Assembly: GCA_032164245.1 (NCBI GenBank)
Contig: JAVMKO010000005.1
Span: forward strand, 59,505,442 to 59,569,441
Direction of reading: 5' to 3'
DNA: 64,000 nt
Source of the DNA: Sternotherus odoratus
Lineage: Eukaryota > Chordata > Testudines > Kinosternidae
Translations under genes and position numbers: made by a program
Notes under the pieces: model-generated
Databases searched by the model: none
The model's input: the letters and a program-made list of their open reading frames with translations, nothing else
Told to the model about the DNA's origin: nothing
Shown here: positions 3,763 through 25,720 of the stretch, piece by piece
How positions within the stretch are numbered: position 1 is the stretch's first letter
How the letters are laid out: every line of letters starts with the position of its first letter

Positions 3763-3962
3763 TTGAGAGATGAGATGTGTGAGGTAATACCTTTTATTGG
3801 GCCAACTTCTTCTGGTGAGAGACACAAGCTTTCGAGTTAATTCAGGTCAAGAAGATTTTTGTGTGACTTGAAAACTTGTCTCTCACCAGCAGAAGTTGGT
3901 CCAATAAAAGATATTATCTCACCCACCTCTCTAGTATCCAGAACCAACACAGCTACAACTGC
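3763..3962 (+). mobile_element. Penelope-like 3' end, family 2, head-to-head palindrome
   Basis: The left arm (about 3763-3845, minus-strand sense) and right arm (about 3850-3936, plus-strand sense) are diverged reverse complements of each other; both carry the block 'gttggyccaataaaa'. The plus-sense arm continues about 26 bases beyond the inverted arm to the shared 3' terminus 'aaccaacacagctac'. The left arm, on the minus strand, preserves 'ctgaattaactcgaaagc', which is the hammerhead-like core region seen in the longer copy at 21823-22450. Assignment to Penelope rests on that longer copy. Confidence 0.65.
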
Positions 3963-5022: not shown

Positions 5023-5197
5023 GAGGTAACAAAGAGTCCTGTGGCACCTTAAATATAAACTAAAGAATTGAAGCATAAGCTTTCATGGGTATTAGCCCAC
5101 GAAAGCTTATGCTTCAATACTTTAGTTATTTAAGGTGCCACAGGACTCTTTGTTACTTCTGCTATTCCAGACTAACACGTCTACCTCTCTGATTCTA
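5023..5197 (+). mobile_element. Penelope-like element, family 1, head-to-head palindrome
   Basis: A hairpin-forming pair: the left arm starts at 'acaaagagtcctgtggcacc' (about 5029) in minus sense and the right arm (5090-5154) is its reverse complement. The centre lies in 'gggtattagccc'. Only the right arm continues, for 41 bases, to the 3' terminus at 'ctacctctctgattc'. On the plus strand the right arm carries 'agcccacGAAAgcttatgct', the 3' half of the hammerhead-like core. Possible 9-bp target duplication 'tgtgtgtat' at 5014-5022 and 5198-5206, but it lies in microsatellite sequence and is ambiguous. Confidence 0.75.
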
Positions 5198-5240
5198 TGT
5201 GTGTATATATATGTATAAGTATGTATAATAATCTTCATTT

Positions 5241-5274
5241 GTAGCCTTGTGGCATGTGTGTGTGTGTGTGTGTA
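5241..5274. repeat. (TG)n microsatellite, second copy with shared flank
   Basis: GT run preceded by 'tagccttgtggc', matching the sequence before the first GT run at 4986-5022. The two copies sit about 250 bases apart on either side of the palindrome. Confidence 0.85.
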
Positions 5275-5331
5275 TTAGTTCTTGTTCCCAGGTGAGGAAA
5301 TGAGTGGAATTTTCTAAGACCAGTGTTCTTT

Positions 5332-5357
5332 ATAAAAAAAAAAAATTTTTTTTTTTG
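5332..5357. repeat. A-run/T-run inverted pair
   Basis: A run of about 12 A joined directly to about 12 T, a perfect low-complexity palindrome. Confidence 0.9.
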
Positions 5358-5412
5358 AATGCTAACATCAGTCATTCTAGAAATAGGCATTTATTGTACT
5401 GTGACTCTTGCA

Positions 5413-5474
5413 GCCAGATCCTCAACTGATGTACATTGGCTCCTTTGAATTCAGTGGTGTTCTAGGAGGTGAGG
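5413..5474. repeat. Old palindromic MITE-like repeat
   Basis: The ends 'ccagatcctca' and 'tgaggatctgg' are exact 11-bp reverse complements enclosing a short core with 'ttcagtgg'. It belongs to a worn family in which 'agatcctcagctg' ends face each other; related decayed copies appear at 7972-8064 and near 20400-20470. Confidence 0.55.
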
Positions 5475-7971
5475 ATCTGGGCCATAATCTTGAAAATGTC
5501 TTAGAATAGCAATGTTCGATTAACATATAACTTTTTAACATAATATTTCTTTAGTCCTTCTTCCTAACATTTTATTTTCCGAAGAGATGCAGTGAAGAAT
5601 TGATAAACAATAGAGTGCCATCTTGAAGCCTAAATAGCTTCAAGAGAACTGGAAAGTACTGTCCCCACATGTCTTAAGTAAAATGATTATCCTGCGTGGG
5701 AGCTCATTTTTGCACAGATACTGCTCCATGTATGGGAGAGATTTCAGGATTTCACTCTCAGTAGCTCAGTCTTTCTATTCTAGGACCAATTTAGATTTCT
5801 CAGGTTTTGCATCTCATCTTTGCTTGCTGGACAGTCTCACGGCAACATGAGGTTGCTGGGTCAGTTTGTACCATTCTTTTGCCTTCTGACTTGGGAAGAA
5901 ATTACACCTTGTTTTTGCTTGAAAATAGATTCTCATGTGTCTGTGAGTTCATGTCTGATATGTATGGAAAATTCTTGCAGAGGTCAGCATTTAACTTGCT
6001 TTCAGGAGCACTACATGGTAAAAGCTCATGTCCTTCTCTAAGTTCTGCACATTTCTAAGTCCACCCTGCAAACTGGCCCAAATTCACTCAAAACTCAGCT
6101 GAGGTTTGTTCCAAACTCAGCAAAAGCTTTCTAAGAATTTGGCCCAGATTCCTTTAAAAATGCAGTAGTGGTTGTGTTTTTCAGTGCTTGAGTTTCAGGT
6201 TTGTGATGAAAATTAAAACCAGGTGACCATACTCTAATTTATTCCTCTTTCCAATTAATTGTATTTATGATCATGTTTTGGCTGTGTCTCTTCCTCCCTC
6301 TAAATGATGTGTTCTATCCTGTGGCTCCTGGCTACATCACCACTTCTTATAATCACCTTCATTATAAGACAACCTCTTAATTTATGTTCAAAATGCTTCA
6401 AATGCAATAATGATATTGTAATGAAACTTATGTCTTCCCAAATGGCAAAAAGAAGAAAATATGTGGGGCACTGCAAGTTTCCCCATCTGCAAAATGAAGA
6501 TATTGATATTAACAACCTTTTGGGGTGTTGGGTGGCTTAATTAATTCATGTTTCTAGGAAGCACTTTGGAGTCCTTGGTTGGAAGGTCCTAAGTAACCAG
6601 AAATTTCTATTTCAGGTTTAGTTACAATTATTTTTGAACTGTAGGGATGTTTTATACCCTGTCAATCTAGGTTGGTTTATTAGTATGATATTGTACTTAC
6701 TGACTGTGTTGTTAAGAGAGTGTGCATTCCAAAAGCTGCAGTGACAGACCCTAGTGCAGCATTGTGAATTAGTGACAGCACATAGTGTTGAATGAAGGTT
6801 GATTACAGTTTGGTTCCCACCTATTGTCCCTGGTGAGAGAGACAATGTCTTCACAAGGGGCTTAGCAGAGGGTTATGTAGAGGCTTTGGCTTCTTTTTCC
6901 TTTTGTTTGGTATACCAGGATCGGTATTTTGGTGTTGATTGTTCTTTGTTTTTTTTACTCCTCCCAAGCTAATTATTTTGAAGAAAATAGCTTTTCAGAA
7001 TATTGCATGTGTGCACATTTATGAATACTTTGAGATTGTTAGATGCTAAAATACTTGTTATGGAAAAAATCCTCACGAATTGTCTGTTCTATTCTTTATA
7101 AATCTTAACTTTTTTTGAATGCAGGTTTGACCTCAGAACATAACCTTAATACCAAACATTGACTGTCTCTGACTTCTTCTCTCATGTCTCATTAGAAGCA
7201 CAGTCAGGCAATTGGAAGGATGCTGGTGCTTCATTCCCATTGTGAGCTCCTCTTCCCCCCCCAGTTAATGTCTTGTGGGTTAATTGCCTTGAACCCTTGC
7301 AGAAGGAATTTTGGTTTGTGGTACAGAAGCTTGCTGCAGCATGTGGCAAGAAATTTCACATGATTCTGAGACATGTACACAGTAAATCTGTGTCACCGTG
7401 GTAACCATTTGCACCTGCAAACGTGAGTCATAGAACTGCGGAATTGCAATACAATTTTGTACTCCTTATGGAGCACTGAAAATTGTTCATAAACAAACCC
7501 ACATCTTTAATATCTTTAAAATATCTGTATTTTAACATTCCAGCTGTCTTGTGGAATCAATAGAGTACCTAGATATATCTAATCCAGTCATCTCAGCCAA
7601 AAAACTCTGCCAATTTACATTAGTCAAGGGTCTGACCCCTCATTTCCAATTTAATCTATTTTATATGACAGCTGTCATTGTGATATCTGATTGCCGCCAT
7701 ATAAGAAACCAAGAAAGATCTCTATCTCTATCAATACAAATGGAACATGTTGCTGTTCTGGGCTGTTGGGTATTTTCTTAAATTACAAAACATATATAGT
7801 TTTACTTTATTTCTGATGTATGAATATACAAAAGAAATTCCTTTTCAGATGATTTTCAGATGCCTATGATGGCCGGCAAATGAGGTATGCCAATAAACTG
7901 CCCTTTTCTCTTGCAAAAGTCCTTGTAAAAATAATAGTATTTGTGCTTTTGGAAACATCCATTTAATTTTA
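5475..7971. other. Unannotated stretch
   Basis: No gene supported. Overlapping frames at 5807-6058 and 6300-6540 show no family motif and have partners of similar length on the opposite strand or in another frame, as expected by chance. Homopolymer patches occur (T-run near 6950, C-run near 7254). Confidence 0.45.
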
Positions 7972-8064
7972 TGGGTCAGATTGTTAATTGGAATACATTG
8001 GATAGATCCTTTGACTTCAGTGGAGCAATGCAAATTAACACCAGCTCAGAATCTGGCCTTATTA
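7972..8064. repeat. Old palindromic MITE-like repeat
   Basis: Worn copy of the family at 5413: 'cagattgttaattgg' at the left faces 'caccagctcagaatctgg' at the right, with 'gacttcagtggagcaatgc' in the middle. Confidence 0.45.
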
Positions 8065-8084
8065 ACTTTAACAATAACACTTTG

Positions 8085-8210
8085 CTCTTCTGTAACACCT
8101 TTCATCCCAGGAACTCAGTGATTTACAAACATTAATTAAGCCTCACAACATTCCAGACTAACACGGCTACCACCCTGATTCTTAACACCCCAGTGACGTA
8201 TTTAAGTGGT
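8085..8210. repeat. Ancient SINE remnant split by a Penelope-like tail
   Basis: 'tgtaacacctttcatcccag' and 'acaaacattaattaagcc' on the left, and 'accccagtgacgtatttaag' on the right, look like one old interspersed repeat. It is interrupted at 8151 by the Penelope-like 3' tail; 'aaca' flanks the interruption on both sides. Confidence 0.45.
8151..8184 (+). mobile_element. Penelope-like 3' tail, family 1, very short copy
   Basis: Only the 3' terminal 34 bases are present ('ccagactaacacggctacca' then 'ccctgattctt'). They match the terminus of the copies at 5023-5197 and 25599-25709. Flanked by 'aaca' on both sides, a plausible short target duplication. Confidence 0.6.
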
Positions 8211-9243
8211 GTTGTTCCTAGGGCTGTGTGAAATATTCATGACAAAATTGGCAGCTCTTAGAGATCTCAGCAATCCGATAGAATTCAAATAATTGATGAT
8301 GGAAATAACTTTTACATTCATGACCGGAAAGTCCATAGTTTGTCCATGTCACTTCTTGTAGTACATTATCCATTTTTGAAGTGGATTGACAGGGTTGAAG
8401 CCGTATTGTATTTCTTCACATTCCCTGTTGGCCTGACTTTCCCCATGTTCTGAGAGAGATTAAAATCCATTTTGACTAGTTTGCTTTGGCCTACATAGGA
8501 ATGAGTAGCTGCCTCTGAATTATGGCTGAAGTGAAAAGAATTCTTGCCACCCCTACAAAACCTTGGTTGGGGTAGCAGGCCAATGTTGTTGTTTTTTACC
8601 CCAGAAAGAAAACACAGGGAGGTAGGAATTTGATTGAGGAAAGTTTTATCACAAGGCCTGGAAAGGGGATTGTATGCTGATGGAAATACTATATTCTTGG
8701 AAATTTTGGATGCTTTTCAGACAGGTCTGAGGGCATCCAGGAAAGGTTATATTATCTGGACATCTATAGGGTACTCTGGCTTTACAACTGGAAGGACAGT
8801 TAAATTTGGTCAGTCACAGAAACTATTCATCCTGCCCCAGGGCTTAAAGAATGGGCACATGGGCCAAGATTTTTAAAGGCATTTAGGCTTTTCTGTGCTC
8901 AGTGTTGCAAAGGCCAAGTTCTATTTTCAAAAGTGATTTAGGAGCCTTGGAAGCTTAAGTCTTATTTAAAGTCCCTACTTGTTTCTGCAAGATCTTCTTT
9001 TCCTGACCCTATCCTGGAAAAAGTTGTATTTGTCGGATTTGTTTGAGGTGCCTGACAGTCACGGATATGTCCAAATCACTGGTTTTAAAGCTGTTTGTCA
9101 GAATGGAGAATGGCCAATGTAATGTTTCCATGTTAATGTTGAGGCTACAATGTAATTAAAAGACTTAGCGTAGTCCAGATACGGTGGTGGCTACAGGGAG
9201 CTGATTGTGGCTCCCTGATCTTAGGCTGCCCAGCCCCAGCAGA
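8211..9243. other. Stretch with an old repeat trace only
   Basis: Around 8865-8985 'gatttttaaaggcatttagg' and 'ttcaaaagtgatttaggagc' look like a worn interspersed repeat. Nothing else is recognised; the 80-codon frame at 8634-8876 has no motif. Confidence 0.4.
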
Positions 9244-9251
9244 AGTTAGAG

Positions 9252-10163
9252 CAGGGGTGGGGAACCTTTTTTGTGCCAAGGGCCATTTGGACATTTATTA
9301 TGTCCTTCGCGGGCCGCTCCCCCCCCCTCCCCCGCGGGCCACTCCCCCCTCCCCCCCCCACGGGCCGCTCCGCCCTCCCCCCCCCCCCCACCCGCCGAGG
9401 AAGCCCAGGCTGGCAACGGGAGCTGAGACCCCAGCTGGCAAGGGGCCAGCGGGGGAAACCCCAAAGCAGTGGCAAGCGGAGTGCTTAGCCCTGCACTGCT
9501 TTGGGGTTTCCCTGCTGGCCCCTTGCCAGCCAGGGTCCTGCCGCCTGCCCCAGTCAGCTCCCGCTATCAGTCTGGGTGTAGGGGGTGATGTTGCTTTACC
9601 CCTGCCCAGCCTCCCATCTAACTGCTTTTTTCCCCCACCCCTGCCTGGCCCGGCCCACCCCACCGAAGCTAACCTCCTCCCCCCTCCCAACCCAGCCTCC
9701 TGCCCCCCATGCCTGACCCACCCAGCCTAGCCTCCCCCCACCAAGCCTCCTTCCCTCCTGCACCCACACCTCGCCCACCCCTGCCTCCCCCCACCCCATT
9801 GACCGTCGGCTCCCCGCGGCGCCGGCGGCCCCCCCCCCAGGTTCGAGCCGCCCCTGCCTGGCGGCCCACGTGCGTCCCTGGCCAGCGGCTCCCCAGGCGC
9901 TTGCCGGCCCCAGCGCGGAGCCACACCCGCCTGCCGGCCGGAGCCCAGAGGCACCCCTGCGCGTCCCTGGCTGGCGGCTTCCCCAGGTGCTTCCGGCCTC
10001 TTCGCTGATCGCGGAGCCGCCCTGGGCCGCCAGGGGGGGGCAGCTCCGCGTTTGGCGAAGGAGCCGGGAAGCGCCTGAGGGAGCCGCCGGCCAGGGACGT
10101 GGGCCGGACGGAAGGCTTTGGCGGGCCGTATAAGGCTCGCGGGCCAGAGGTTCCCCACCCCTG
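9252..10163. mobile_element. GC-rich hAT-type MITE, 912 bp, with perfect 8-bp target duplication
   Basis: Terminal inverted repeats begin CAGGGGTGGGGAACCT at 9252 and, on the other strand, CAGGGGTGGGGAACCT at 10163, a 16-bp exact match. Both ends are flanked by the same 8 bases, agttagag (9244-9251 and 10164-10171). Eight-base duplication and CAGGGGT ends are the hAT hallmark. The interior is extremely C-rich on the plus strand with no hAT transposase, so it is non-autonomous. Long frames on both strands across it (up to 247 codons) are proline/glycine/arginine composition artefacts. Base composition is utterly unlike its AT-rich flanks. Confidence 0.9.
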
Positions 10164-10171
10164 AGTTAGAG

Positions 10172-10887
10172 CAACAGGAAGCCTATTCTGACTTTGGCCA
10201 CTGCTGTAAAGTTCCTGCCAGTGGAGCCCCTTTCCTCCTCTTATGCCAGGGTGTGTGTGATGGTGATAGGGGCAGCAGTTGGCTGAGGAAGTGACTCCGT
10301 TAGCAGAGAATTCCCGTACACAGGGGGAATTCTCCCCTAGCTGGTTGGGAAATGGTTTTTGAGGCTTCAAAAAAATTCTCCCATCCCAGATGGGACAAAA
10401 CTTCAGTCTCAAAAAAATTCACTCACCAATAATTTATAAAAATCTGATAAGGTCATTGGAAATGTTTCATTCTAATTTCTACCTTTGTTTTAAATTTTTA
10501 ACCCTTTTATTGTAAATTAACGAAAATTTGAAATGAAAAGCCATTTGAAACGGGAAAAAGGAAACTACTCATGAGCAAATATTAAAATAGGATTTTTGAC
10601 AAATGTGAAACTTTTTTTCAGATGGGGAGTGTGGGACTCTGAACTTAAAAGCAGCACCCTAGAACTCCCATATTCACTACTGTCCTATAACTATGATATA
10701 CTTTGAGGTTAGGAACGTTCCCAACCACGCTTTCAAGTACAACAATGGAGTAGCCAGATGTGCTGATGGCTCATTAAAGGGAATCCACTATCTCAGGAAC
10801 TGTACACAATGGAGGTTTCTCAGGGAGAGCATGTATATGATGGAGACTGCTTGATCCAAGTCATAGCAAAAGATTGTTCCAGTAAGC
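10172..10887. other. Unannotated stretch
   Basis: AT-rich; no recognisable gene or repeat. Confidence 0.4.
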
Positions 10888-11337
10888 AGGAAGAAAATAT
10901 ATGGGGGAAGTGACATCAAAGACTCAAAAAGTAATACCCTTTACACCAGTAGTAGGAAGCCTGCTAAACAACCAGTGGGGCCACTGGACGATCGAGGTGC
11001 TAAAGAATCACTCAAGAATAATCAGACTATTGCGAAGAAACAAAATGAATTATTTGCATCGGTCTTCATGGCTGAGGATGTGAGGGAGATTCCCAAATAT
11101 AAGCCATTCTTTTTGGGGCAGATATGAGGAACTGTCCCAGATTAAGGTATTATTAGAGGAGGTTTGGGAACAAATTGATAAATTAAACAGCAGTAAGTCA
11201 CCAGAACTAGATGGTATTCGCCCAAGAGTTCTGAAGGAATTCTCATGTGAAATTGCAGACCTACTAAATGTAGTCTGTAACCTATCATTTAAATCAACTT
11301 CTGTACCATATGACTGGAGAATGCAAGATGGTCTAAT
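10888..11337 (+). mobile_element. CR1 LINE fragment (endonuclease/reverse-transcriptase linker and RT start)
   Basis: Plus-strand translation in several broken frames follows the CR1 ORF2 order: 'LNELFASVFMAEDVREIP' near 11047-11100, then degraded 'SPELDGIRPRVLKEFSCEI' near 11198-11260, then the stretch preceding 'DWR'. The homologous minus-strand block is at 16505-16729 in the larger CR1. Multiple stops and frameshifts; it ends abruptly at about 11337 where unrelated sequence begins. Confidence 0.8.
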
Positions 11338-11581
11338 TCTGGGGTGCGAGGCTGGGGAGCTGGGGGGAATTGGCTGGAGCCTCTCTTGTTGGTTCATGAG
11401 TGGCTGGGAGAAGCATTCATATAACTCAGCTGAGTGTGTGTCTGTCTGTGTAAGTGCAGCACCTGTCAGAGATTTGTAGCTTGGCAACAGCACTACAAAG
11501 TGAGTGGGATACCCCAGGTTGGTGGGAGAGAGGGCTCAGTGGTCCCACAGTTCAGGTCACACCGTGGGGACCCCATCACAG
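11338..11581. mobile_element. Probable LTR fragment
   Basis: A G-rich patch abutting the CR1 break, with 'agctgagtgtgtgtctgtct', 'tgcagcacctgtcagag' and a terminus '...ccccatcaca'. It resembles the 3' portion of reptile LTRs, which end in CA, but the other end and any target duplication are not visible. Low-confidence classification. Confidence 0.35.
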
Positions 11582-12059
11582 GAAGATTCAATGAAAATTA
11601 GCCTTTTCCTACAAACAGTTTTGGTTTCAACAAATTTGATACTTTCTGTCGGATAAAATTGTTTAGTTGGAAAATTCCCAACCAGCTCTAGTTTTAAGGT
11701 CATTTTGAGTCATGTATAAGACACAAAGCAGCCTTAGCACATTAAAGAATCCGTCCCTTCACGTTCTGTCTCATGTAGTTGGTTTGATAAGCATATAATC
11801 TGAGCATCTGGACTGGATAGAAGATCTTGAAGAAAGCACATGATGCAACATGAAAAATTTCTGCTTTTCTAGAAAAAAATATAAATATTGGCTGCTATCC
11901 CACTTCCACTTCTTATCAACATTTTTGAGCAGGTACAGTAGTGCAAATTTAATATCTGTGGCCTGGAATTTCATAGGCAAATGCAATTTTGGAGACATAA
12001 AATGGAATTGAGATTTTTTTTCAAATGCTATTTTACAATTTTTATGTATTTATTTTTCA
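11582..12059. other. Unannotated AT-rich stretch
   Basis: Nothing recognised. Confidence 0.4.
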
Positions 12060-12200
12060 CTCAGAGTTAATGGTCTGCTTTATGGATGGATAAACTGAAA
12101 GGTTCAGTGACTTGCTCAAGGTCACACAGTGAATCTCGGTAGTAAAAATGAGAATAGAATCCAACTTCTCACTCCCATTCCTTGGCTAACATGCTTAGTA
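12060..12200 (-). repeat. MIR-type SINE remnant
   Basis: Antisense MIR core: 'aaactgaaaggttcagtgac' followed by 'ttgctcaaggtcacacagtg' and 'gaatagaatccaacttctc'. The 'tgacttgcycaaggtcacac' phrase is the conserved centre of MIR. Confidence 0.65.
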
Positions 12201-13005
12201 CTTACAGCTGAAAGATCAAGAAAAGCTAGTCTGGAAGCAGCTTAAGGTTTCATTACTCAGAAAAATCATATATGATGTGAAAGGCTAACTTTAATTAGAT
12301 ATGGTCCTAAGTGCAATATTTAGATCCCGATGTGGGTTTGGCTTTTAAACATCTAGCCTCAGAGGTTGGGGGAGTTTTCTGACTTGAACCTGTCTGTACT
12401 ACTGTAGCGGGCCCGGATGGGCCCCCTACGGGGGGGACAGCCCCCGCACCGGCGATCCGCCATGGACGGCGGAGCCGGCGCGACCACGCCCCCCGCCCCG
12501 GAAGTGCACCCGACAACCCGGATGCACAAAAGGCGGGGCCGGGAGCCAGGAAGGGGGCAGAAGCGGGAGGAGAGAACCCCGCTGGGAGGACTGGCCTCCC
12601 CCCTGCCTGGAGAGAGAGAGAGAGGAGCGTCCCGAGGCTGCGGCCGGACCAGATGGCCCCGACGCCCCCCACCCCGCCTTCCGGGAAGACGGGAACGGGG
12701 ACCTGGGCAGCGAACCTCCCGCGGAGGGAGAAGCCGGAGGTGAGACCCCGATGCTGGTAGACCCCGCGGCCGCGGGGTGCGACCTGACGGGACCCACACC
12801 TACCCGCCCCGAGACCCCCGACGACTGGCCCGGTGTTCCAGCCGCCAGCTACCCGGAGGAGCCCGGAATGGACTGGACCCCCGCGGGCCAGGAACCCTGA
12901 GGTCAGACCCGGGAGGGGAAGGGAAGGGGCTAGCTACCTTTACGCCCGGAGCCCAGACGCCCGAGCCGGACCTAGAGAAAGAGAGAGAGAGAGACGGTGT
13001 ATGTA

Positions 13006-13550
13006 CTGGCTGCTTGGGCCAGGGAAGACCAAGCGAAAGCCAGCCTGAACAGAGACTGTGGACTTGCTGACTGTTTGGGCCAGGATAACCCAGACGACCG
13101 TCAGCCTAACAGAGACTGTGCCTTTTCTGGCTGCTGGGCAAGGGAAGCCCAAGCCAAAGCCAGCCTGACAGAGACTGTGTGTTTGCTGGCTGTTTGGACC
13201 AGGAGAGCCCAGACGACCGCCAGCCTAGCAAGCCTGGGTAATTGCTGGCTGCTTGGGCGAGGGAAGCCCAAGCGAAAGCCAGCCTGAACAGAGACTGTGT
13301 AATTGCTGGCTGTCTGGACCAGGAGAGCCCAGACGACCGCCAGCCTACCGAGCCTGTACCTTTACTGGCTGCCTGGGCAAGGGAAGCCCAAGCGAAAGCC
13401 AGCCTGAATAAAGACTGTGTGACTGCTGGCTATTTAGACCAGGAGAGCCGGCGATCAACAACCCCGCAAAGACGGTGTGTTTGCTGGCTGCTGGGGCAAG
13501 GACAGCCCGGCCACAACCAGCCCGGCGGGGACCGCATATTTGTACTGCCG
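13006..13550 (+). repeat. Alternating 60-bp tandem array inside the solo LTR
   Basis: Nine units of about 58-64 bp, each starting near 'ctggctg'. Two unit types alternate: A units contain 'gggaagcccaagcgaaagcc' and B units contain 'ggagagcccagacgaccgcc', in the order A-B-A-B-A-B-A-B-A, so the higher-order unit is about 120 bp. Units seven to nine diverge most. In the seventh unit the usual 'gaacagagactg' reads 'gaataaagactg', creating an AATAAA. Confidence 0.85.
13407..13412 (+). promoter_or_regulatory. Candidate LTR polyadenylation signal
   Basis: AATAAA within the seventh tandem unit; the corresponding bases in sister units read 'aacaga'. Position is about 380 bp before the LTR end, so function is unproven. 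Confidence 0.35.
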
Positions 13551-13798
13551 GATCGCCTGGCAAGAGAGAGGGAACACGTGCCCTCCGGCGACCTGGGGCC
13601 CAACCAGTGAGGGCCCGATCCCCAGAGGCTGTACGCCGGACGACCTGGGTGCCTAGTCGGGGTGACTCACCACCGGCCAGGGCCTGACAAGAGACGGAGG
13701 CCACCCGCAGGGGGCGCCCTCAACCCTGGGACCCCGCTAATTCCCCATACTCCCAGCAGGAGGCGCCCCGGGGTAAGAACAGAAGCCTCTACAACTAC

Positions 13799-14999
13799 AC
13801 TATATAACTTTGGATGACTGTCATTTTCCAATCTTGGAAACTATAAAGGGATGTCATATGGCGATGTATATTGGAAGTTGTCACTGGAGATCAGCACACT
13901 CTGGGCACTGAAACACAGGTTTTTTTGCTGATTTATGCTGGTAACTAGCCCAAGAACATCTCAAGGTTTGACTCAGGAACTTAAAAGGCTGAATTTCTCT
14001 CTGAGGCAAGAGGTGGAGGTCCTTAAAGGAGAAAGCCCCGCTTCTCTAAAAACCCAATTATGAAAACAAGGTCTCGAGATGAGCCTTACATTACTTTAGA
14101 GAATCCATCAGTTTAAGGAAAAGGGGTATGTTATGGGATAATACTGTAATAGGATCTGTTATATATGGGGGAGAGGAAGGAGCACAGTAAAGTTATCTTG
14201 CCTGTTCATACTGAATTACAGTGGAAGGTTAGAGATTAATGTGACCCTAATACGATGTAACCTGTTGGCTCCCTGATGATGTCACCTAAGCAAACAATAG
14301 ACACAGAGGAGTAATGTCAAAATATTATGCTGAAGTTCATTTCTGGCAGTTGTTTACACTCAGACAACACAGGGAAGGAAACTTTGGAGTTCAGGTCAGG
14401 TATGCTTTAGAGGCATAGCATTATGTAGTCCCATAACTGTTAATTTAAAAAAACCAACAATATATTAGGAGCATGTTTAGATTTAATCTGATTGAAATCA
14501 GCTCCCTTATTTTAGTTACTACTATATTTTAAGGAGGCATTTTTTCAACTCTGTACTGGTATAATTTATCACCTGCATACAGGACTCTGACAAGACAACA
14601 CCTCTGGTATTATGAATAGTATTAGCTATTCTCTTTAGAGCTATGTTTTGTGTACTCTTTCTGCAGAGAGAGTAGTCTAGCTTCAGTGGCTTTTTATGTA
14701 TGATACTGTAATGAAACAATATTACAACAGAATCTCAGAGTTGCGAACATCTTGGGAAAGGAAGCTGTTCGTAATGCTTGAAAGTTTGTCATTCTGAAGA
14801 AAACATTCTTTCAAAAGTTTACAATGGAACATTGACTTAATATAGATTCGAAATTTCACTATGCAGAAGAAAAATGCTGCTTTACAGTTACTTTTTTTAG
14901 TATGTTTAACACAGCACTGTACTGTAATTGCTATTTTTTCCCTCTCTACTACTGCTTGATTGCGTACTTCTGTTTCAAAATGAGGTGCCTGGTTAAAAA
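13799..14999. other. Unannotated stretch
   Basis: AT-rich; the 138-codon minus frame at 14722-15138 runs into the CR1 tail and shows no motif. Nothing supported. Confidence 0.4.
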
Positions 15000-17570
15000 C
15001 ATAAGAATGGCCATACTGGTTCAGACTAAAGGTCCATCCAGCCCAATATCCTGTTTGCCAACACTGGCCAATGCCAGGTGCCCCAGAGAGAGTGAACCTA
15101 GCAGGTAATGATGAAGTGATCTCTCTCCTGCCATCCATCTCCCTCCCTGACCAGCAGAGGCTGGGGACATCATTGCTTACTCAACCTGGCTAATAGCCAT
15201 TCATGGACTTAACCTCCATGAATTTATCTAGTTCTCTTTTAACCCCCGTTATAGTCCTCGCCTTCACAACCTCCTCAGGCAAGGAGGTCCACAGGTTGAC
15301 TGTGCACTGTGTGAAGAAGAACTTCCTTTTATTTATTTTAAACTTGTGTGTCCATTAATTTCATTGGGTGGCCCCCTATTTCTTATATTATGGGAACAAA
15401 TAAATAACTTTTACTTATTGACTTTCTCCACACCATTAATGATTTCATTTACCTCTATCATATCATCCCTTAGTCTCCTCTTTTCCAAGCTGAAAAATTC
15501 TAGTCTCTTTAATCTTTCCTCATAGGGACCCATTCCAAACCCCTAATCATTTTAGTTGTCCTTCTCTGAACCTTTTCGAATACCAGTATATCTTTTTTGA
15601 GATGAGGAGACCACATCCGTACGCAGCATTCAAGCTGTGGGTGTACCAAGGTTTTATACAAGGGCAATAAGATATTCTCCATCTTATTTCTATCTATTCA
15701 GAGAACTATCCACAATGACTCCAACATCCATCCTGATTAGTTGTAGCTAAATTAGCCCCCATCATATTGCATGTATAGTTGGAATTATTTTTTTCTGATG
15801 TGCATTACTTTACATTTATCCACATTAAATATCATTTGCCATTTTGTTGCCCAATCATGTAGTTTTGTGAGATCTTTATGAAATTCTTCAATCTGCTTTG
15901 GTCTTAACTATTTTGAGTAGTTTAATATTGTCTGCAAACTTTGCCACCTTACTGTTTACCCCTTTCTCCAAATCATTTATGAATAAGTTGAATAGGGTTG
16001 GTCCTAGGACTGACCCTTGGGGAACACCACTAGTTACTCCTCTCCATTCTGAAAATGTATAATTTATTCTTACCCTTTCTTTCCCTGTTTTTTAATCAGC
16101 TCTCAATCCATGAAAGGATCTTCCCTCTTATCCCATGTCATCTTAATCTATGTAAGAGCCTTTGGTGAGGGGCCTTCTCAAAGGCTTTCTGGAAATCTAA
16201 GTACACTATATCTACTGGATCCTACTTGTCCACATGTTTGTTGATCCCTTCAAAGAGTTCTTATAGATTAGTAAGACATGATTTCCCTTTACATAAACCA
16301 TGTTGACTTTTGCTCAACAATTTATGTTCTTCTATGTGTCTGAAAATTTTATTCTTTACTATTGTTTCAACTAATTTGCCTGGTACTGACCTAGATTTAC
16401 TGGTCTGTAATTGCCGGGATCACTTCTAAAGCTCTTTTTAAAATATTGGTGTTACATTAGCTATCTTCCAGTCATTGGGTACAAAAGCTGATTTAAAGGA
16501 CAGGTTACAAACCATAGTTGATTAGTTCCACAATTTTACATTTAAGTTCCTTCAAAACTCTTGGGTGAATGCCGTCTGGTCCCGATGACTCCAAAACCTC
16601 CTCTAATGACACTTCAGTCTGTGACAATTCCTCAGATTTGTTACCTACAAAGGATGGCTCAGGTTTGGGAATTTTCCTAACATCCTCAGCTGTGAAGACT
16701 GAAGCAAAGAATTCATTTAGTTTTTCCACAATGACTTTACTGTCTTTAAGTGCTCCTTTTTATATGAGTGTTTATGCTCCTTTCTATTTACCTCACTAGG
16801 ATTTGACTTTCACTTTTAAAAGATGCCTTTTTATCTCTCACTGCTTCTTTTACATGGTTGTTAAGCCACGTTACCTCTTTTTAAGCTCTTTTACTGTGTT
16901 TTTTTAATTTGGGGTCTACATTTAAGTTGGGCCTCTATTATGGTGTCTTTGAAAAGTGTCCATGCAGCTTGCAGGGGTTTCATTCTAGTCACTGTACCTT
17001 TTAATTTCTGTTTTAACTAATGTCCCAATTTTGCTGTAATTAAATGCCACAGTGTTGGGATGCTGAGGTGTTGTTCCCATGACAGAAGTTTTAAATGTTG
17101 TTATTTTATGGTCACTATTTCAGAGTGGTCCTGTTATAGTTACCTCCTGGACCAGATCCAGCGCTCCACTCGAGAACTGCCTCTTCTCTTGTGGGTTGCT
17201 GTACCAGCTGCTCCACAAAACAGTCATTTAAAGTATCGAGAAATTTTATCTCTGCATTTTGTCCTGAGGTGACATGTACCCAGTCAATATGGGGATAATT
17301 GAAATCCCCCACTATTATATTGAGTTCTGTATTTTGATAGCCTCTCTAATCTCCCTTAGCATTTCATAGTCACTATCACTGTCCTGGTCATGTAGTCGAT
17401 AATAGATCCCTACTGTCATATTCTTATTAGAGCATGGAATTACTGGTCGACTGGTCAGTTCTTAACTCTGGTGTTTGGAACTCAGTTGTTCTGCTGTAGT
17501 CAATTTCTCATCCAATAATATATAGGATCCTCTCACTATGACCTTACTTACTGTATAATGAGACCTATGT
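15000..17570 (-). pseudogene. CR1 LINE, 5'-truncated, decayed ORF2
   Basis: Read on the minus strand from 17570 to 15000 the fragments follow CR1 ORF2 order. The endonuclease C-terminal half comes first ('IYYRLHDQDSDSDYEM' near 17400, 'GDFNYPHIDW' near 17300). Then the EN-RT linker and RT start (16505-16729, containing 'LNEFFASVFTAEDV' and 'GPDGIHPRVLKEL'). Then the RT core, with 'GVPQGSVLGPTLFNLFINDL' near 16010 and the active site reading FADN instead of FADD near 15940. Then the C-terminal domain and 3' UTR, ending near 'acataagaatggcc'. Many stops and frameshifts make it long dead. The EN N-terminus and ORF1 are absent, as expected of incomplete target-primed reverse transcription. Confidence 0.9.
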
Positions 17571-17682
17571 CAGGAGCTGAAGTCAAGTACAGATTTATGT
17601 ATTTAAATAGAAAAAGGCAAATATCTTGTAACTATATAGCATGTCACTAGACTAATGGCATAAGAGAGGGAAAGATAAATAA

Positions 17683-17850
17683 GAAACATACTGGGTCAAA
17701 CTAAAGGTCCGTCTAGCCCAGTATCCTGTCCTCTGACAGTGGCCAATGCCAAGTGCCCCAAAGGGAATAAACAGAAGGGGTAATGATCATGTGATCCATT
17801 CCCTGTTGCCCATTCCCAGCTTTTGGCAAACACCTTTTAAATCCATTTGG
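17683..17850 (-). mobile_element. CR1 LINE 3'-end fragment
   Basis: 'ataagaaacatactgggtca' through 'ggccaatgccaagtgcccca' repeats the 3' terminal segment of the neighbouring CR1 (15000-15110) in the same orientation, so it is a second, very short copy. Confidence 0.8.
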
Positions 17851-20800
17851 AATCATGTACAATAATGAAAAAGAATGTTGGCAATCAATTTTCTGATTAA
17901 AAACTACCTACCTACTAACACTGGAAGCTAAATTAAACCATATCCTTTACAATCTGTACAATATATGGAATGATAACATGATGATACTTGATACTCAGTG
18001 ATTATGATTTTAGCTGGTACAAAGGGCAGTAGCACTGCAATATTATGAGTGTCTAGACTCGCAAGCCCTATTACCAAATCAAAGCAAATCTAATACATTT
18101 ATCAAAACTTGATTTCCAGACTTTTAAATAGTCACTCATTACTGTATATGTTATAGCTAAGAAACATTTAAAGTATAGTCCATGTATATTAATAACCCAA
18201 AAGTAAATGTGTACAATATATTTTATATAGTTATATAGTTTTATTACTGTATCTTACATTATTTGTATTGTGGTAGTGCTTAGGAAGACAGTCCCTGCCC
18301 CCAAAGAGCTCACAGTGTAACTGTAAGAGGCAGCAGATGGACATAGACAGATGGTGGAGTTCAAAGAAAAATGAGGTCCTATTGTCTAAATAGCCTAGAC
18401 ACACAGGGTGGGGGAAGGGGTGGATCACACAAGCCAAGTGAACAATATGATGGTGGCAAATAACATATCAGTGTCCTAACTATTTGGGATGGGGGTGCTT
18501 GCATATGCACACGTATATGTGTTGGGGTGGTGATTACTTTGGAGGGAAGGAAGGATGGAGGGAAGCTGAGATGATATCACGAGGGAGGGGAAAGGGAAGA
18601 ATTGGAGCAAACAGTCAATCTGACTGTCCCTGCCTTGGCTGCTCCTGGCTGGTGGAGTTTCTATGGGCTTGCTTCATTGAATCCCACTATAATACTTTGG
18701 CTCAGATTCTGCTGTCAGTGAAACTGTCCACTAAGGAGTGATGCCTAGCTTTGAAAATTTTCCAGGGCAATGTTGTACTAACCTCCTGTCCCCCAGTCAA
18801 GTTCCACATTGCAGAAATTACACCGGGAAGCAATATGCATGCAAAATGCTCTATACACAGAAATGTAAAAAGAAGGGCTCTTAGTTTATATTAATATGGA
18901 AAACAGGATGAAATACTTAAGGACTTCTGCCAGTAAATAAATGTGAATTTACAGACTTTATGGGCCCAAGAGGTGAAAGATAATTGAAATTCTATTGGAT
19001 TTTCACCACCTCAGACACACACTTATACCATTTTCAACCCCTCCGCTTATCGCTGAAAACAAGGTCCTCATGTTTGTATGAACAACTCATGCAGTCAGGC
19101 ACAAGATATATTTGATCTACAAACAGAATTTTGTTTATCCAGTGGGATTACAAGTCTTGAAAAAACAGATGTAGCTGGAAGAATCTCCTCACTCTCAACC
19201 CCCGGGGTCTATAGTCAAGCCCACTGGAGTCTCAGATTCAAAATAAGTTTCTACTAATATTTAGTTTGGTTTTAAGAGGTAGAGAGAATTCATGCATGAA
19301 ACCTTAATCATTCCCAACCTCTTAATCCCCTAGATACCTGCTCACTTTCTTCCCCTTTGCAATAAACTCGAGCAAATAATTTATCAGCTTTAATTTCCAC
19401 AAACCCCTTAAAGGTAAAAGTCAGCTAGTGTGCAGTGCTTGTTTCCTACATCACTGCTCAAAGCAACTTCAGAATGCAATGTACTTCACTGGAGAGCTTT
19501 ATAGAGTATCTGGATGCAGAGGGTGAAATTAACTTGTACCATTGTAAACCCAGTGTATCAACAGCAGCTCCCTTTCCTTTCAACACTATTTATTAAACTT
19601 ATTGCTTTCATTTTAACAAGGACAATTGCTGTCTCTGCACACACAATCCTGAACTCTAAAGTGCAGAGTCTAGGGAATATGTAGTCATAACATCACACAG
19701 ATCGGTAGGGGCTGGATACATCCCCATGAAACATTTGGCTTCAACCAAATTTCATTTAGTAGAAAATATTCTGACCCGGCTCCAGGCTTGGCTATGCAGT
19801 ATATTATAAGTGTTTAAGTCTTCAGAGACCACCTTCCTCTGCCTGAGCAAGGAATGCTGACTTTTATAAACGTGGTTCAAAGCAATTGGTTTCTCAATAA
19901 CTACAGCCATTTCTCTCTGACTGACGAGGCAATGGGAGCTGACAGCTTGGCCAAGCTCTGCTACTGCAGCTGAAGGAATAAGAAAAGAGGAAAAAAATAA
20001 CCGGCTCTGTGAAATCCATCCTGTATGCAGATTAGCTCCAGGGATCTGTGGCTCAACAATTAGGAGAATAGTATTTGTACCTCAGAAAGTGTTAAGAATA
20101 ATTGAGGCTCATTGCTCGGACATTCAGTGCAATGAGGGTAGTTGTGAGGAAATCCTACAGGGTATTACTATCGGGGAATTAAGTGTAAGGGGGAAACAAA
20201 ACAGAAAACAAAGTCCATTATTTGATACATACAACCTCTTGTGTTCCAGTCCCCAAAATGTACTAGATGTGGGTCAAGGAATTAGAGATACTGGGTTCCT
20301 ATGAGGAGGTGGGATAGACGGAGCTGGTAGCATTGCCTGTGGTTAAGGCTGCCTGACACTCGCCATTACATACCCATAATGAGTAAAATAGATACCTGAC
20401 CCTGAACTCATTGAAGTCACTGGCACAACTCCTGTTTACTTCAATGGTGCAAGATCAAGCCTGGCTGTCTCCTATAGTGATCCCAGAAGTGGATGGTATC
20501 GAAACCACAAAATGATCTTGGTCATGTTATGGGCCAGGGCCAATAGCAAACAGTAGAAGAGGAGATATTTACTTTTTCTCGTGCTTTCTGGGTCATCCTA
20601 TATTTCTGCATGGACTATGTTGTACCCAGTGTCACTTGCCCTATCCTGGATATGCAGTGCTGGGACTAATTCCACTCCAAACTCTGTTTGCTATTACAGT
20701 ACCCACATTTGTTGCCAGTGTAGTAGTCCCAGCACTCCAGTGATCTCCTGCCTCCATATGCCGCCAGATCCCTCTTAATGCTGCCTTATTAGCATAATGA

Positions 20801-21822
20801 TGTGTTCAAATGCCTGGCACCTGTTTACTGTCTGTATTCTAGGCCCTGATGCTGCAAGCTGTTTGTGTCTGGAACACTTGTGACAGAACGCTGTACCTGC
20901 ACTTTGTAACAGCCTTCCGGTACTTCCAGGGCTATCCCCTACCAGAAGTACTTAGAAGTGTGTTCCAGTTCTTCTTTTCTTAGCACTGGAGCACTGAGTG
21001 TCAAGCCTCAAGTTACCAACCCCACATGCTATCTGGATGCTGCCGTTCTATTTGTTTGTTTGTGGCACTTCCGCTGTCTGTGGGTGGACAGTGCCGATTT
21101 TCTGCTACGTTAATGCCAAACAATTCTGTGTATATAATGTGAAAGCTAAGAATCTTAAATGCACAGAAGTCAAGAGATTTAGTGGTTCACTGAAGACCTT
21201 CTTGTAGTATACAATGTACGAATATAGGTTTAGCACCACAATGTGACTGGGATAGTTAGGTTTGGATTTCCTCACTTTTATTCATTTAAACTTCTCCACT
21301 GCAATCTTGCATTCATTACTGTACACTTTGTGTTAAATTGTGTTTTATTTTTAAATAAAATAAATATAATGAGTACACTAAGTGTGAGATGACTCCGCAT
21401 GTGAGTGTGTGTTCTTGGAATGATTTACTTAGTTCAATCTGCAGATATCCAGAGAGATTCCGACTTATGTCTGTGGATATTTAGGCCTGTTGCCCATTTC
21501 ACTTGGTAAGAGAAAATGCAGTGTCAAGCATACAGAGTGTACAGTTTTAATTCGATTTTATTTTTCTATGTTTTTTAAACTGCAGAAAGTTCGTGAGTGA
21601 GAATTATTTTTATTGCTCATAGACTCATAGCTGCCCATGGCATTTGCTCTCCAATGCCCATTAAATTCATGGCAATTGGATGCCTGAATCCTTTAGGTGA
21701 CTGAAAAATCTATCTTTCTCATGTAAATAATATAAATAGTATGCGAGAGAAGAAAAGAGCGAGAGATCTGTGTATGATTTGCTTGTTTTATTTATCTTGG
21801 TTTTAGATTAACATTTTTGTTT
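17851..21822. other. Long stretch with only old repeat traces
   Basis: Near 18240-18340 'gtggtagtgcttaggaagac' and 'agtccctgcccccaaagagc' look like a worn SINE/LINE tail also seen near 35770-35820 and 40985-41010. Near 20380-20470 there is a worn copy of the palindromic family at 5413 ('gaagtcactggcacaactcc' facing 'cttcaatggtgcaagatc'). No gene supported. Confidence 0.4.
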
Positions 21823-22450
21823 GCAGCATTGTAGCCCCGTTGGTCCCAGGATATGTGAGAGACAAGTTGGGTGAGATATCTTTTATTGGATGAATTTCTG
21901 TTAGTGGAAGGGACAGGCTTTTGAGCTTCATGGAGCTCTTCTTCAGGTCTGAGGAAGGATACCTGAGTGTTCAAACTACGTACAAGATGGGACAGCTAGT
22001 TAAGCATAAGGGGTTAACACATAGTGTAGGACACTACTTACAAATGAAATGGTCAATTAAAACCCCTGTTGTGGTGGGGCAATGGAGGGGTAGTAAGCAG
22101 AAGGCTGTGTTACAAGTTGCTGTAATGGGCTATAAAACCAGAGTCTCTAAGACCATGGTTTTTAGTGTCCAGCAGAATTATGAATTAAGTTCACAGGCTT
22201 TTGTTTTGAAGGTGTTGTGCAGGTTTCCTTTGAGGATGAGGACTGAGTGGTCATATACGGAATGATCATATTGGGAAATATGTGATCACTCACAGGCTAG
22301 CTAGGGTATTTGTTTTTTTATCACTTCTTTGTGTGAGCTCATTCACGAGCATAGTGATTATCTGGTTTCATCAACATAGTTGATGTGGCAGTTGATGCCC
22401 CCGATAACTGTTTTGTAATTTTTTGCAACTTGATTGTTGTGGTTTTAAAT
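21823..22450 (-). mobile_element. Penelope-like retroelement 3' part, family 2 (GIY-YIG tail remnant and terminal repeat)
   Basis: Read on the minus strand from 22450. A decayed frame near 22270-22180 reads 'QYDHSVYDHSVLILKGNLHN', followed by 'ACELN' and a degraded 'LLDTKNHGLN'-like block. The pattern DHS..DL.V, K-rich helix, then L.T...GLN is the C-terminal part of the GIY-YIG endonuclease found at the end of Penelope ORFs. Downstream comes the non-coding terminal segment: 'gacCTGAAGAAGAGCTC' near 21955, matching the hammerhead core CUGANGA plus helix II, then 'aagctcaAAAGcctgtc', then 'caataaaagatatctcaccc', and the terminus 'ggaccaacggggctacaatg' near 21823. Unlike the other family-2 copy at 3763 it is not palindromic. 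Stops and shifts show it is dead. Confidence 0.7.
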
Positions 22451-22914
22451 TCAGCTACATGAGGTACTAACAAAATAAAGCCAAAAACAAATGTGTTAAA
22501 CTCTTCCCATCACATACACAACGCTTGTTTGAAATATGAAACTTAAATACTGAAAAATGTGCACCTCTCTAGAGACAGGATACCAGGATCCCTTGTGGCA
22601 AGTCTTATGTTACTCTTACTGTGTTACTGTGTGACTATGAAATAGAAACCACCAACACAGAACAGTGGAAATAGAGAACAGGTGTGCATTTAATTTGGAA
22701 AGGCAGCAGATATCAGTAAAAGCAGCCACAGTTCACTATCTCAGCATGTCTACAGAGCAAGAAAGAAACCAAACAATAGCAGCATTGGAAATACTGGTCT
22801 GAACTAAGATTTGTGAATTAAATACTGTGGGTCGTGATCTGTTCTATAGTAAATGTGGTATAACTATGAGGTTTATTAGGGTTTAGAAGTAGTTCCAAAC
22901 CAGAATCCTTTGGA
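22451..22914. other. Unannotated stretch
   Basis: AT-rich; the only notable item is one copy of a 34-base exact repeat (22683-22716). Confidence 0.4.
22683..22716 (+). repeat. 34-base exact direct repeat, copy 1
   Basis: 'tgtgcatttaatttggaaag' followed by 'gcagcagatatcag' is identical to 24646-24679; the bases on either side differ. It is not part of any repeat family I recognise. Confidence 0.9.
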
Positions 22915-22924
22915 TCTCAATCTG

Positions 22925-23112
22925 CACTTGCGACGAAGAGTCCTGTGGCACCTTAAAGACTAACAAAAGTATTGAAGCATAAGCTTTCGTGGGCTAATAC
23001 CCACTTCGTCGGTATTAGCCCACGGAAGCTTATGCTTCAATACTTTTGTTAGTCTTTAAGGTGCCACAGGACTCTTTGTTGCTTCTGCAGATCCAGATAA
23101 CACAGCTACCTC
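22925..23112 (+). mobile_element. Penelope-like element, family 1, head-to-head palindrome with 10-bp target duplication
   Basis: Left arm (minus sense, from about 22935) and right arm (plus sense, 23012-23081) are near-perfect reverse complements for about 70 bp. The plus-sense arm runs on to the 3' end '...acagctacctc'. The insertion is flanked by tctcaatctg at 22915-22924 and 23113-23122, a perfect 10-bp duplication, so the palindrome entered as one unit. On the minus strand the left arm holds 'ccgacgaagtggg', 'tattagcccac' and 'gaaagcttatgct': one base from the hammerhead core CUGANGA, then helix II and GAAA. In the right arm GAAA has become GGAA. Confidence 0.85.
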
Positions 23113-23159
23113 TCTCAATCTGAATTTAGGGCACAGGCCCATATGTGATGGGGCTAGAG

Positions 23160-23325
23160 CAGTGGTAGGCAACCTACGGCCCATCAGGGCAAGCTTATTG
23201 CAGGCTGTGAGACATTGTGCTGATGTTGACCATCCACCCCACACAGCGCCCAGTGGCCACAGGTCACTGTTCCCAGCCAATGGGAACTGCATGAACGCAT
23301 GCAGGCCGCAGGTTGCTCGCCACTG
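23160..23325. mobile_element. Short hAT-type MITE, 166 bp
   Basis: Ends CAGTGGTAGGCAACCTACGG at the left and, on the other strand, CAGTGGCGAGCAACCTGCGG at the right. Flanked by ggctagag (23152-23159) and ggttaaag (23326-23333), a 6/8 match expected for an old 8-bp hAT target duplication. Confidence 0.8.
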
Positions 23326-23334
23326 GGTTAAAGG

Positions 23335-23560
23335 GTCCAGTGGTTAAGTAATCTAAGACTCAAGAGTCTCGGGTTCAATTTCCTTTTCTGGCGCCAACTT
23401 CCTGTGTGATCTTGGTCAAGTCACTTAGCCTCTCTGTGCCCCAACTGCACAATGGCAATAATACCATTCCGACTTCACAGAGGTGTTGTGAGGATCAATA
23501 TGTTAAAAGGCTGTGAGATGATGAGGGCCCTGTAAGTACCTAAGAAAGACTGCATGGGGC
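23335..23560 (+). repeat. MIR SINE, comparatively well preserved
   Basis: A tRNA-derived head with a worn box B ('cgggttcaatttcc' near 23369) is followed by the MIR core 'cttggtcaagtcacttagcc' and 'tctctgtgccccaactgcac', then 'aataataccattccgacttc' and 'tgttgtgaggatcaatatg'. Order and spacing are those of MIR. It directly abuts the hAT MITE. Confidence 0.8.
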
Positions 23561-23944
23561 ATAACTGCTCTTGTGGCTGTATCAGTTAAAAAAGGGAACC
23601 TGCTCTCAAAAATCTCTAGCAGTTCTGGCATAGAAGGAAGCACTGTCCATACCATACTAAAGTCATGTGGCTTGTGTTAATTAATGAGGGAGGTGTTTGT
23701 TATTAACTATTATTATTTTCCTGACTGTTCCCCTGGAGCAAGTGGTCGAGTAAGGTTGTAAACTGCATTGCTGTCATCTTTCTGCTCTGTTTGAATCTAA
23801 GCCTTCCAGTGGCTCCCGTGTGGATGAGAGCGTTTAGTGATCCAGGGGAAAACCCCGGATCAGTTTATTACACTCTGGTTTCAAATGGATGTGGCATTCT
23901 TCCTCACTTCTTGTTCTAAAGTGCTGTGAAATGTGGCTGTGCAC
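23561..23944. other. Unannotated stretch
   Basis: Nothing recognised. Confidence 0.4.
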
Positions 23945-24110
23945 AGCTGATAACACTTAGTTGTTATATAGTGCTGTTCATCCATATATCTCAAAATACT
24001 TCTGATGGAAATGGATGATTTCTTCTTTTTGTAGATTGTGAAAACTGAGACATACAACAGATCAGAGGCAGAAGCAGGAATGGAAGCCAGGTCTTGTGCC
24101 TACTCATACA
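23945..24110 (-). repeat. Old MIR/L2-type repeat remnant
   Basis: 'atatagtgctgttcatccat', 'atatctcaaaatacttctg' and 'gtgaaaactgagacatac' followed by 'gcaggaatggaagccaggtc' match, in worn form, the order of an ancient amniote SINE also seen at 35860-35960. Confidence 0.5.
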
Positions 24111-24222
24111 AGTTAGATGTACACGTATGTGCAAGCTTAGCTCAAGTTGGAGCTTAAAAATAGCACTGTAGCTATTTAAGAGTTCAGGATACAGTGGGGA
24201 TAAGGGTGAGAGACCAGTCCTA

Positions 24223-24342
24223 GGGTGACCAGATAGCAAGTGTGAAAAATCAGGACGGGGGTGGGGGGGTAATTGGCACTTATATAAGAAAAAGCCCCAA
24301 ATATCAGAACTGTTCCTATGAAATCGAGACATCTGGTCACCC
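24223..24342. mobile_element. TA-flanked MITE, 120 bp
   Basis: Inverted ends GGGTGACCAGAT at 24223 and, on the other strand, GGGTGACCAGAT at 24342, flanked by TA on both sides (24221-24222 and 24343-24344). A TA target suggests a Tc1/mariner-type source. The interior has internal symmetry ('ttatataagaaaaagcccc'). Confidence 0.75.
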
Positions 24343-24344
24343 TA

Positions 24345-25587
24345 AGTCCAACCAGTGTAAATCCAGACTAGTTAATTCATCATACGTGTGTCATTTCTCA
24401 TGTGTCTGATGGGTGACATGAGTTTGGGGGTAACCGAGGTCACAGAAAAACATAGTTTCAGTTCTTCTCAAACAGTCACAGCTCTCTTTTAGATGGGCCT
24501 ATAATGCCACGTAGTATGATGCCATACCGGTTAATGCATTGGCAGCTCTAATGCTGCCACCAGAGTCAGGAAAGTGGCAGAATTATTAGCCTCATAACTA
24601 CAACTTGTTATGAGACTCTGAATTGTTTTGCTGAACATATTCCATTGTGCATTTAATTTGGAAAGGCAGCAGATATCAGAGGTCCAAGTGTTGAATGTTT
24701 TCAGCTGTTACTGAGGAAGAAATCAATTCCACTGTTCAAATGGTTGGAGACTTTGCTATTAGTTTTAAACTGACAGCAGGTGTGTGCACACATTACATCC
24801 CCTAGTCTAACCATTAGGGTACTTTGGGACCATGCAGGAGGTCAACTGCAAGGATTCAGGTTTATTAAACAGCACAGAGAAATAATGCCTCCCATCCTTC
24901 CATTCCAATTATTATCAGCGGTTGTTTTTCACTAGTATTAGATTGTGTTGAAAAGTAAGCTAGTCCCAGGCATCTGGCATCAACTAGATGGGAATATTTC
25001 ATGAATCAGAATGAGGACAAGTCAGCTTGAAAACACCCTACTGTGAGAGCTGGGCAAAACAATGGATTTCCCTCCCACCCCCATTGACTGGCAATTGTGA
25101 AAACCAAAAATATTTGGCATCAAACTGAAAGTGGTGATGTTAAAACATTTTTGAAAATTGAAAAGCCAAAAAACCCGAGTTGGAGCAAAAGAAAACTTTT
25201 TGTTGGATTTGAACATTTTTGTTTTGATTTTATGCTTTTTTTTTTTTGACAAAATCAAAGGAAAGGAGACACAGGTTCTCAAAACTGCAGGAGGAGGAGG
25301 AGGAGGAGGAATAAATGGTTATCATGGCAGCAGTTCCCTTAAGAAATTTAGCCTAGTGCTTAGGGCACTCTCCTGGGCTGTGGAAGACACTGGGGTCAGT
25401 TTTCCCTTCTGAATGTTGTGAAGAATCTGAATTTGTGTCTCTCTCACTGCAGAACAGTGTCCTAGCCACTGGTCTATGGGATATTCTAGTGTGGGGTTTT
25501 CATGTTGATGCTGTTCCACTTTGTATAAATAATTAGTCATTGCATCAGGGGCTTGAAACCTGGGTCTCCCACATCCTAGGTGAGTGC
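24345..25587. other. Unannotated stretch with low-complexity patches
   Basis: Holds the second 34-base direct repeat, a T-run near 25238 and a (GGA)n run at 25291-25311. A possible old tRNA-related repeat ('gaaacctgggtctcccacat') abuts the Penelope-like insertion at 25555-25598 and resumes at 25721. No gene. Confidence 0.4.
24646..24679 (+). repeat. 34-base exact direct repeat, copy 2
   Basis: Identical to 22683-22716, offset by 1963 bases, same orientation; flanks are unrelated. Confidence 0.9.
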
Positions 25588-25598
25588 CTTAACCATCA

Positions 25599-25709
25599 GG
25601 AATCAGAGAGGTAGCCGTGTTAGTCTGGAATTGCAGAAGTGACAGAGTCCTGTGGCACCTTACAGACTAACTTTTGTTAGTCTGTAAGGTGCCACAGGAC
25701 TCTTTGTCA
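25599..25709 (-). mobile_element. Penelope-like element, family 1, short head-to-head palindrome with 11-bp target duplication
   Basis: Here the 3' terminus is at the left ('ggaatcagagaggtagccgt' in minus sense) and the truncated inverted copy at the right. The arms ('agtcctgtggcaccttacag' and its reverse complement) meet at 'actaacttttgttagt' near 25672. The whole 111-bp unit is flanked by cttaaccatca at 25588-25598 and 25710-25720, an exact 11-bp duplication. The inverted arm stops 41 bases short of the 3' end, as in the copy at 5023. The hammerhead-like region is absent because both arms are truncated before it. Confidence 0.85.
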
Positions 25710-25720
25710 CTTAACCATCA

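Follow-up and report, generated by a model that had tools for sequence, protein, structure and literature searches.

Short Penelope-like insertions in a turtle genome join one tail-bearing to one tail-less arm, suggesting cDNA synthesis from both target strands

In a 64,000-nt stretch of the genome of the turtle Sternotherus odoratus (contig JAVMKO010000005.1, positions 59,505,442 to 59,569,441; hereafter the window), a first-pass annotation had recognized five copies of a short Penelope-like repeat, family 1. Three of these were described as inverted pairs sharing a breakpoint, and a defined second start of synthesis, rather than random rearrangement, was proposed to explain them. Here, we show that two-armed insertions of this family combine one arm that carries the tail with one that lacks it, and we suggest that they are probably composed of two complementary DNAs (cDNAs), one primed from each target strand, joined by microhomology. 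The three inverted pairs were found where annotated, each with the tail (the 3' end) on one arm and with the other arm ending beside ctctttgt. The remaining two copies were a tail-only piece and a fragment of an older relative.

5023..5197, + strand: family-1 copy 1, two-armed, from the fold-back scan and edge check; tail-less arm (antisense) 5023-5089, loop 5090-5095, tail-bearing arm (sense) 5096-5197
22915..22924: left target-site duplication (TSD) of copy 2, TCTCAATCTG, 10 bp
22925..23112, + strand: family-1 copy 2, two-armed; tail-less arm 22925-23004, centre 23005-23007, tail-bearing arm 23008-23112
23113..23122: right TSD of copy 2, TCTCAATCTG, 10 bp
25588..25598: left TSD of copy 3, CTTAACCATCA, 11 bp
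25599..25709, - strand: family-1 copy 3, two-armed; tail-bearing arm (antisense) 25599-25671, loop 25672-25675, tail-less arm (sense) 25676-25709
25710..25720: right TSD of copy 3, CTTAACCATCA, 11 bp
8150..8181, + strand: family-1 copy 4, tail only, one-armed, without a clear TSD
61744..61773, + strand: copy 5, 30-nt fragment of an older relative

When the whole window was scanned for ungapped fold-backs with loops of at most 12 nt, copies 1, 2, and 3 ranked first, second, and third among the small-loop palindromes, with scores of 68.5, 28, and 27. The next-ranked fold-back, a satellite, scored 15, and the maximum in six first-order Markov controls was 13.5. The edges of copies 2 and 3 match insertion boundaries enclosed by TSDs, and a best score of at least 9 was reached by one of the 389 pairs of control windows. 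Copy 1 is embedded in (TG)n, where a 9-bp flanking repeat represents a weak TSD. At each edge, target and element have a few bases in common, which can be assigned to either. Tail lengths, annotated as 41 nt in copies 1 and 3 and 30 to 36 nt in copy 2, vary with the assignment of these bases and are better given as about 36 to 41 nt and about 30 nt, respectively. The window ranking, together with the start and centre measurements in the genome samples described below, rules out chance palindromes.

Exact matches to a tail word numbered 22,131 (11,071 + 11,060) and those to an arm word 46,076 (23,016 + 23,060) in the genome of 1.76 Gb and 218 contigs, with 0 matches to the control word in either case. 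Copies were sampled mainly from one contig. Sample (a) comprised 20 evenly spaced 10-kb stretches of one contig; sample (b), 80 of the first 100 listed tail matches, with shape not a criterion; sample (c), 40 regions at listed arm matches without an exact tail match nearby, chosen to find tail-less copies; and sample (d), 8 + 20 + 12 loci from a palindrome query (82 matches listed; 40 of 1,369 candidates scored), biased to shapes like that of copy 1. Sample (b) yielded 30 single-locus two-armed copies with TSDs, 13 one-armed copies, and three long inserts counted apart, besides 30 unassigned loci; the nested, TSD-less L120 and the loci L111 to L113 were excluded from the 30. The latter three, older and near-identical to one another, are found near 3.26, 3.31, and 3.42 Mb on contig C1 and represent one repeated locus.

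Every TSD-bounded two-armed copy, 46 of 46, had one tail arm and one tail-less arm. These copies, which were not selected for being palindromes, comprise 3 from the window (the TSD of copy 1 being weak), 5 from sample (a), 30 from sample (b), the three long inserts, each spanning two loci and with shared flank words of 13, 14, and 13 bp, and 5 from sample (c). If the two ends chose their start independently, at most half of the copies would be expected to be mixed. Agreement with one tail and one tail-less end was also seen in 33 further copies from the query-biased sample (d), not all of them with TSDs; in one, L048, the tail arm lacked its last 18 nt. Left uncounted were L179 (a 7-nt repeat only) and L008 2760-2972 (no TSD), both with one tail and one tail-less end, as well as the older two-armed copy L028 5725-5817, L144 (a tail arm and an arm ending near 80, no TSD), and L147 (a repeat of L149). 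Two candidate tail/tail copies, L006 and L009, were rejected, as both lie in larger inserts (the outer repeat of L009 is AAATTGATTAATA; L006 was judged by eye). In L081, a tail arm is joined to a stretch that reads past the start region and ends in 18 A, followed by a short sense arm.

Arm order was nearly uniform. Among pairs less than 500 nt apart at 100 listed places, 20 of 21 were arranged '-' then '+', none '+' then '-', and one '+ +'. Thus, the inverted or direct pLTR-like repeat (pLTR, pseudo-long terminal repeat) of Penelope-like elements is present here in head-to-head form, both in these 20 close pairs and in the 46 TSD-bounded copies. One-armed TSD-bounded inserts were also found, tail-only in 13 of 80 loci of sample (b), two of them with weaker TSDs, and in sample (c) inner-only in 5 of 40 and tail-only in 3 of 40. 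The existence of both sorts implies that either start is usable alone.

The outer ends of the two arms fell into two narrow regions. On a 154-nt reference copy, the inverted arm of the 30 TSD-bounded two-armed copies of sample (b) started at positions 111-120 in 28 and at 79-80 in 2 (median 115; standard deviation [SD] of the 28, 2.3 nt), and the tail arm at 146-157 in 29 and at 163 in 1 (median 153). The two medians are about 38 nt apart, in keeping with the optional 3' tail of 30 to 40 nt of Penelope-like elements. The TSDs of these copies measured 10 to 18 bp (mean, 13.2), shared bases included. The inner ends were widely spread, with SDs of 23 and 30 nt. The plot of arm starts and palindrome centres that the first-pass annotation had called for, made here on the samples rather than on all copies, thus gave non-random starts and variable centres and supports a defined second start. 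Use of the two starts as a pair, one per insertion end, and the position of centres at microhomologies go beyond that annotation. The inverted arms of L114, L129, and the TSD-less L144 begin near 80 instead of 115, a possible third, minor start. A stem-loop between the two starts was predicted in one copy and discarded, its folding being no better than that of shuffles (z = -0.49).

The observations comprise two narrow starts, each used once per insertion, arms in head-to-head order, TSDs, and central microhomology. We propose the following course of events, in which it is inferred that both strands are primed, that two enzyme molecules share one RNA, and that host end joining links the cDNAs. 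The source would be the 5', pLTR-like region of a Penelope-like retrotransposon, inserted short. The element's enzyme would cut both target strands, giving rise to the TSDs of 10 to 18 bp. Reverse transcription primed by one cut end would begin at the outer start, where the tail ends, and that primed by the other at the inner start, which lies about 38 nt closer to the 5' end of the RNA. The two antisense cDNAs would grow towards each other, and short inverted microhomologies would then link their 3' ends, in some cases with small fillers made by copy-back. In the resulting head-to-head insert, the outer ends would be fixed and the centre variable. A stricter version, to which we give somewhat less than an even chance, is obligate two-ended retrotransposition, with one RNA, two starts each used once, one per target strand, and two enzyme molecules; the inverted pLTR of full-length Penelope elements would then arise likewise. 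If the two-ended reading is true, a two-armed insertion is a pair of joined cDNAs. With approximately 22,000 exact tail matches in the genome, thousands of insertions can serve as a record of the reaction.

The centres bear on how such arms might be joined. Inverted microhomology of at least 4 nt was present at 9 of 19 filler-free centres, versus 2-3% in a random-breakpoint null. The two inner ends were equal in 5 of 31 copies (0.8 expected; p = 0.0009), and their rank correlation was absent (Spearman 0.10, p = 0.61). In our reading, each centre is a microhomology junction of two cDNA ends, which had often run off a single RNA in the same region. Some arms were strongly unequal, with inner ends at 128/25, 108/35, and 20/96, with 97 versus 28 nt in L020 and with a tail arm of about 10 nt in L029, as separate cDNAs would give. 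L020 (2108-2283) also holds the longest loop-free palindrome among the sampled copies, with an arm of 88 nt and the centre GGATGCATCC. Further loop-free centres were seen in L087 (TGCA) and L101; this absence of a loop tells against a one-strand hairpin, which needs one. A deletion at CTCTTTG that differs between arms initially seemed to prove that the two had been reverse-transcribed separately, but it turned out to be largely a subfamily difference and is not relied on.

Several observations weigh against two separately primed cDNAs. No reaction intermediate was seen. L145 is tail-less at both ends, though without a TSD, and 30 of 80 loci of sample (b) and 20 of 40 of sample (c) gave no assignable structure. 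Inner ends lay within 15 nt of each other in 19 of 31 copies, versus 11.9 in shuffled pairings (p = 0.003), fillers of 1 to 117 nt occupied 12 of 31 centres, and local copy-back was found at the centres of L061, L062, and L078. In a set that includes the nested L120, arms differed by 4.8% within an insertion versus 10.5% between insertions, and in 15 of 25 cases no other arm was closer to the tail arm than its own partner. Private variants, seen in no other insertion, were carried by both arms in 3 of 28. This likeness and the shared private variants fit copying from one RNA, and they fit fold-back too.

The inner start may be primed on the opposite target strand or be reached by fold-back of a single cDNA. 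In the latter case, a single tail-bearing cDNA would fold at a short inverted repeat, often stem II of the hammerhead-like motif, copy itself, and stop or be cut near the inner start. Self-priming of this sort, although on an antisense template, has been put forward to explain palindromes of rotifer Penelope elements (passages of PMC3846280). It would agree with the private variants common to both arms, with the copy-back fillers, with the small loops of the window copies (3, 4, and 6 nt), and with the recurrence of the centre at stem II in the query-biased set; the centre of copy 1 is the inverted repeat GTGGG-TATTAG-CCCAC, corresponding to this stem. However, it does not explain why 28 of 30 inverted arms should terminate at the inner start, it cannot make the unequal arms of L020 or the loop-free centres of L087 and L101, and one-armed inner-start insertions with TSDs exist. 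We regard self-priming as the weaker reading and as unlikely. The one-of-each rule turns the choice between two primed cDNAs and one self-primed cDNA into a start-site test, and it predicts the behaviour of the purified enzyme.

Twin priming as in LINE-1, in which the second target end primes inside the RNA via local complementarity, has two primed cDNAs, a head-to-head product, and microhomology in common with family 1. In LINE-1, however, the internal sites are variable and a different part of the element is inverted, with no duplicated segment, whereas family 1 has a second site that is almost constant and two arms that repeat the same part of the element. We consider this explanation very unlikely. 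Marginally less probable still is rearrangement after insertion or an assembly artefact. In L006 (748-1725), an inverted flank of more than 700 nt without mismatch, itself an artefact or a recent event, lies beside the Penelope palindrome, but in the 46 copies both arms are TSD-enclosed, and arms differing by 4.8% are not one sequence folded in assembly. Least probable, and largely refuted, is the copying of an already palindromic non-autonomous master element or its hairpin RNA, from which the shape would be inherited: a stem II centre is common to several query-biased copies, but centre, loop direction, and tail side vary by copy, each with its own TSD, and one-armed copies of the same sequence exist.

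Penelope-like elements of the endonuclease-bearing (EN+) kind encode a telomerase-like reverse transcriptase and a GIY-YIG endonuclease. Family 1 was assigned to the Penelope-like elements by the architecture of its copies, not by coding sequence. About 89 nt separate what we take to be its hammerhead cut position from the tail end. In PAc (Poseidon_Ac) of Anolis carolinensis, the hammerhead cut lies at position +26 of the open reading frame and the starts at +111 to +118, so 85 to 92 nt apart (passages of PMC11167929). In vitro, both target strands are cut and extended by the PAc enzyme, and reverse transcription begins at two sites within the RNA, one on either side of a tail of 30 to 40 nt; the start region is AC-rich, with a hammerhead motif upstream (passages of PMC11167929). 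The two family-1 starts correspond to these sites, and their region is likewise AC-rich. In contrast to our proposal, PAc showed no strand difference in start site in vitro, and pairing of the two starts within one insertion is not described in the passages of PMC11167929. In the rotifer Adineta vaga, Penelope pLTRs are inverted head-to-head with TSDs of 8 to 10 bp and palindromes at the inverted junction, one inverted pLTR has an optional 31-bp tail, and the inverted pLTR is 37 bp shorter (passages of PMC3846280). The description there concerns few full or long copies, explained by self-priming, whereas here tens of short copies follow a measured start-site rule. Inverted pLTRs and 3' extensions have been presented as peculiarities of individual copies (passages of PMC8969392). 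No published report of strict one-of-each pairing was recognized in our literature searches, to which passages of PMC12910113 add nothing. Thus, inverted Penelope ends as a type of structure are already known; the quantified pairing rule and the two-strand-priming reading are new.

The hammerhead core CTGANGA-stem II-GAAA was present in 10 family-1 copies and one copy of a second family among 39 pattern matches; no Rfam hammerhead match was obtained in the sequences searched. A microRNA precursor was rejected, since the sub-threshold Rfam matches of this kind only reflect the hairpin shape. Pattern searches for relatives outside the genome gave 1 and 0 matches in viral contigs (L001, taken as chance) and 0 and 0 in genome contigs. 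The second family repeats the two-armed layout of family 1 once in the window:

3761..3960, + strand: second family, head-to-head copy, no TSD found; tail-less arm (antisense) about 3761-3836, tail-bearing arm (sense) about 3871-3960
21821..21990, - strand: second family, one-armed copy

Other inverted structures in the window do not belong to family 1. Imperfect inverted repeats with loops of 11 to 35 nt lie at 9427-9537, 38178-38244, 53575-53670, and 53790-53856, and a C-rich and G-rich minisatellite with inverted blocks of the CCCCCACCTCACCCCC type spans 48032-49665.
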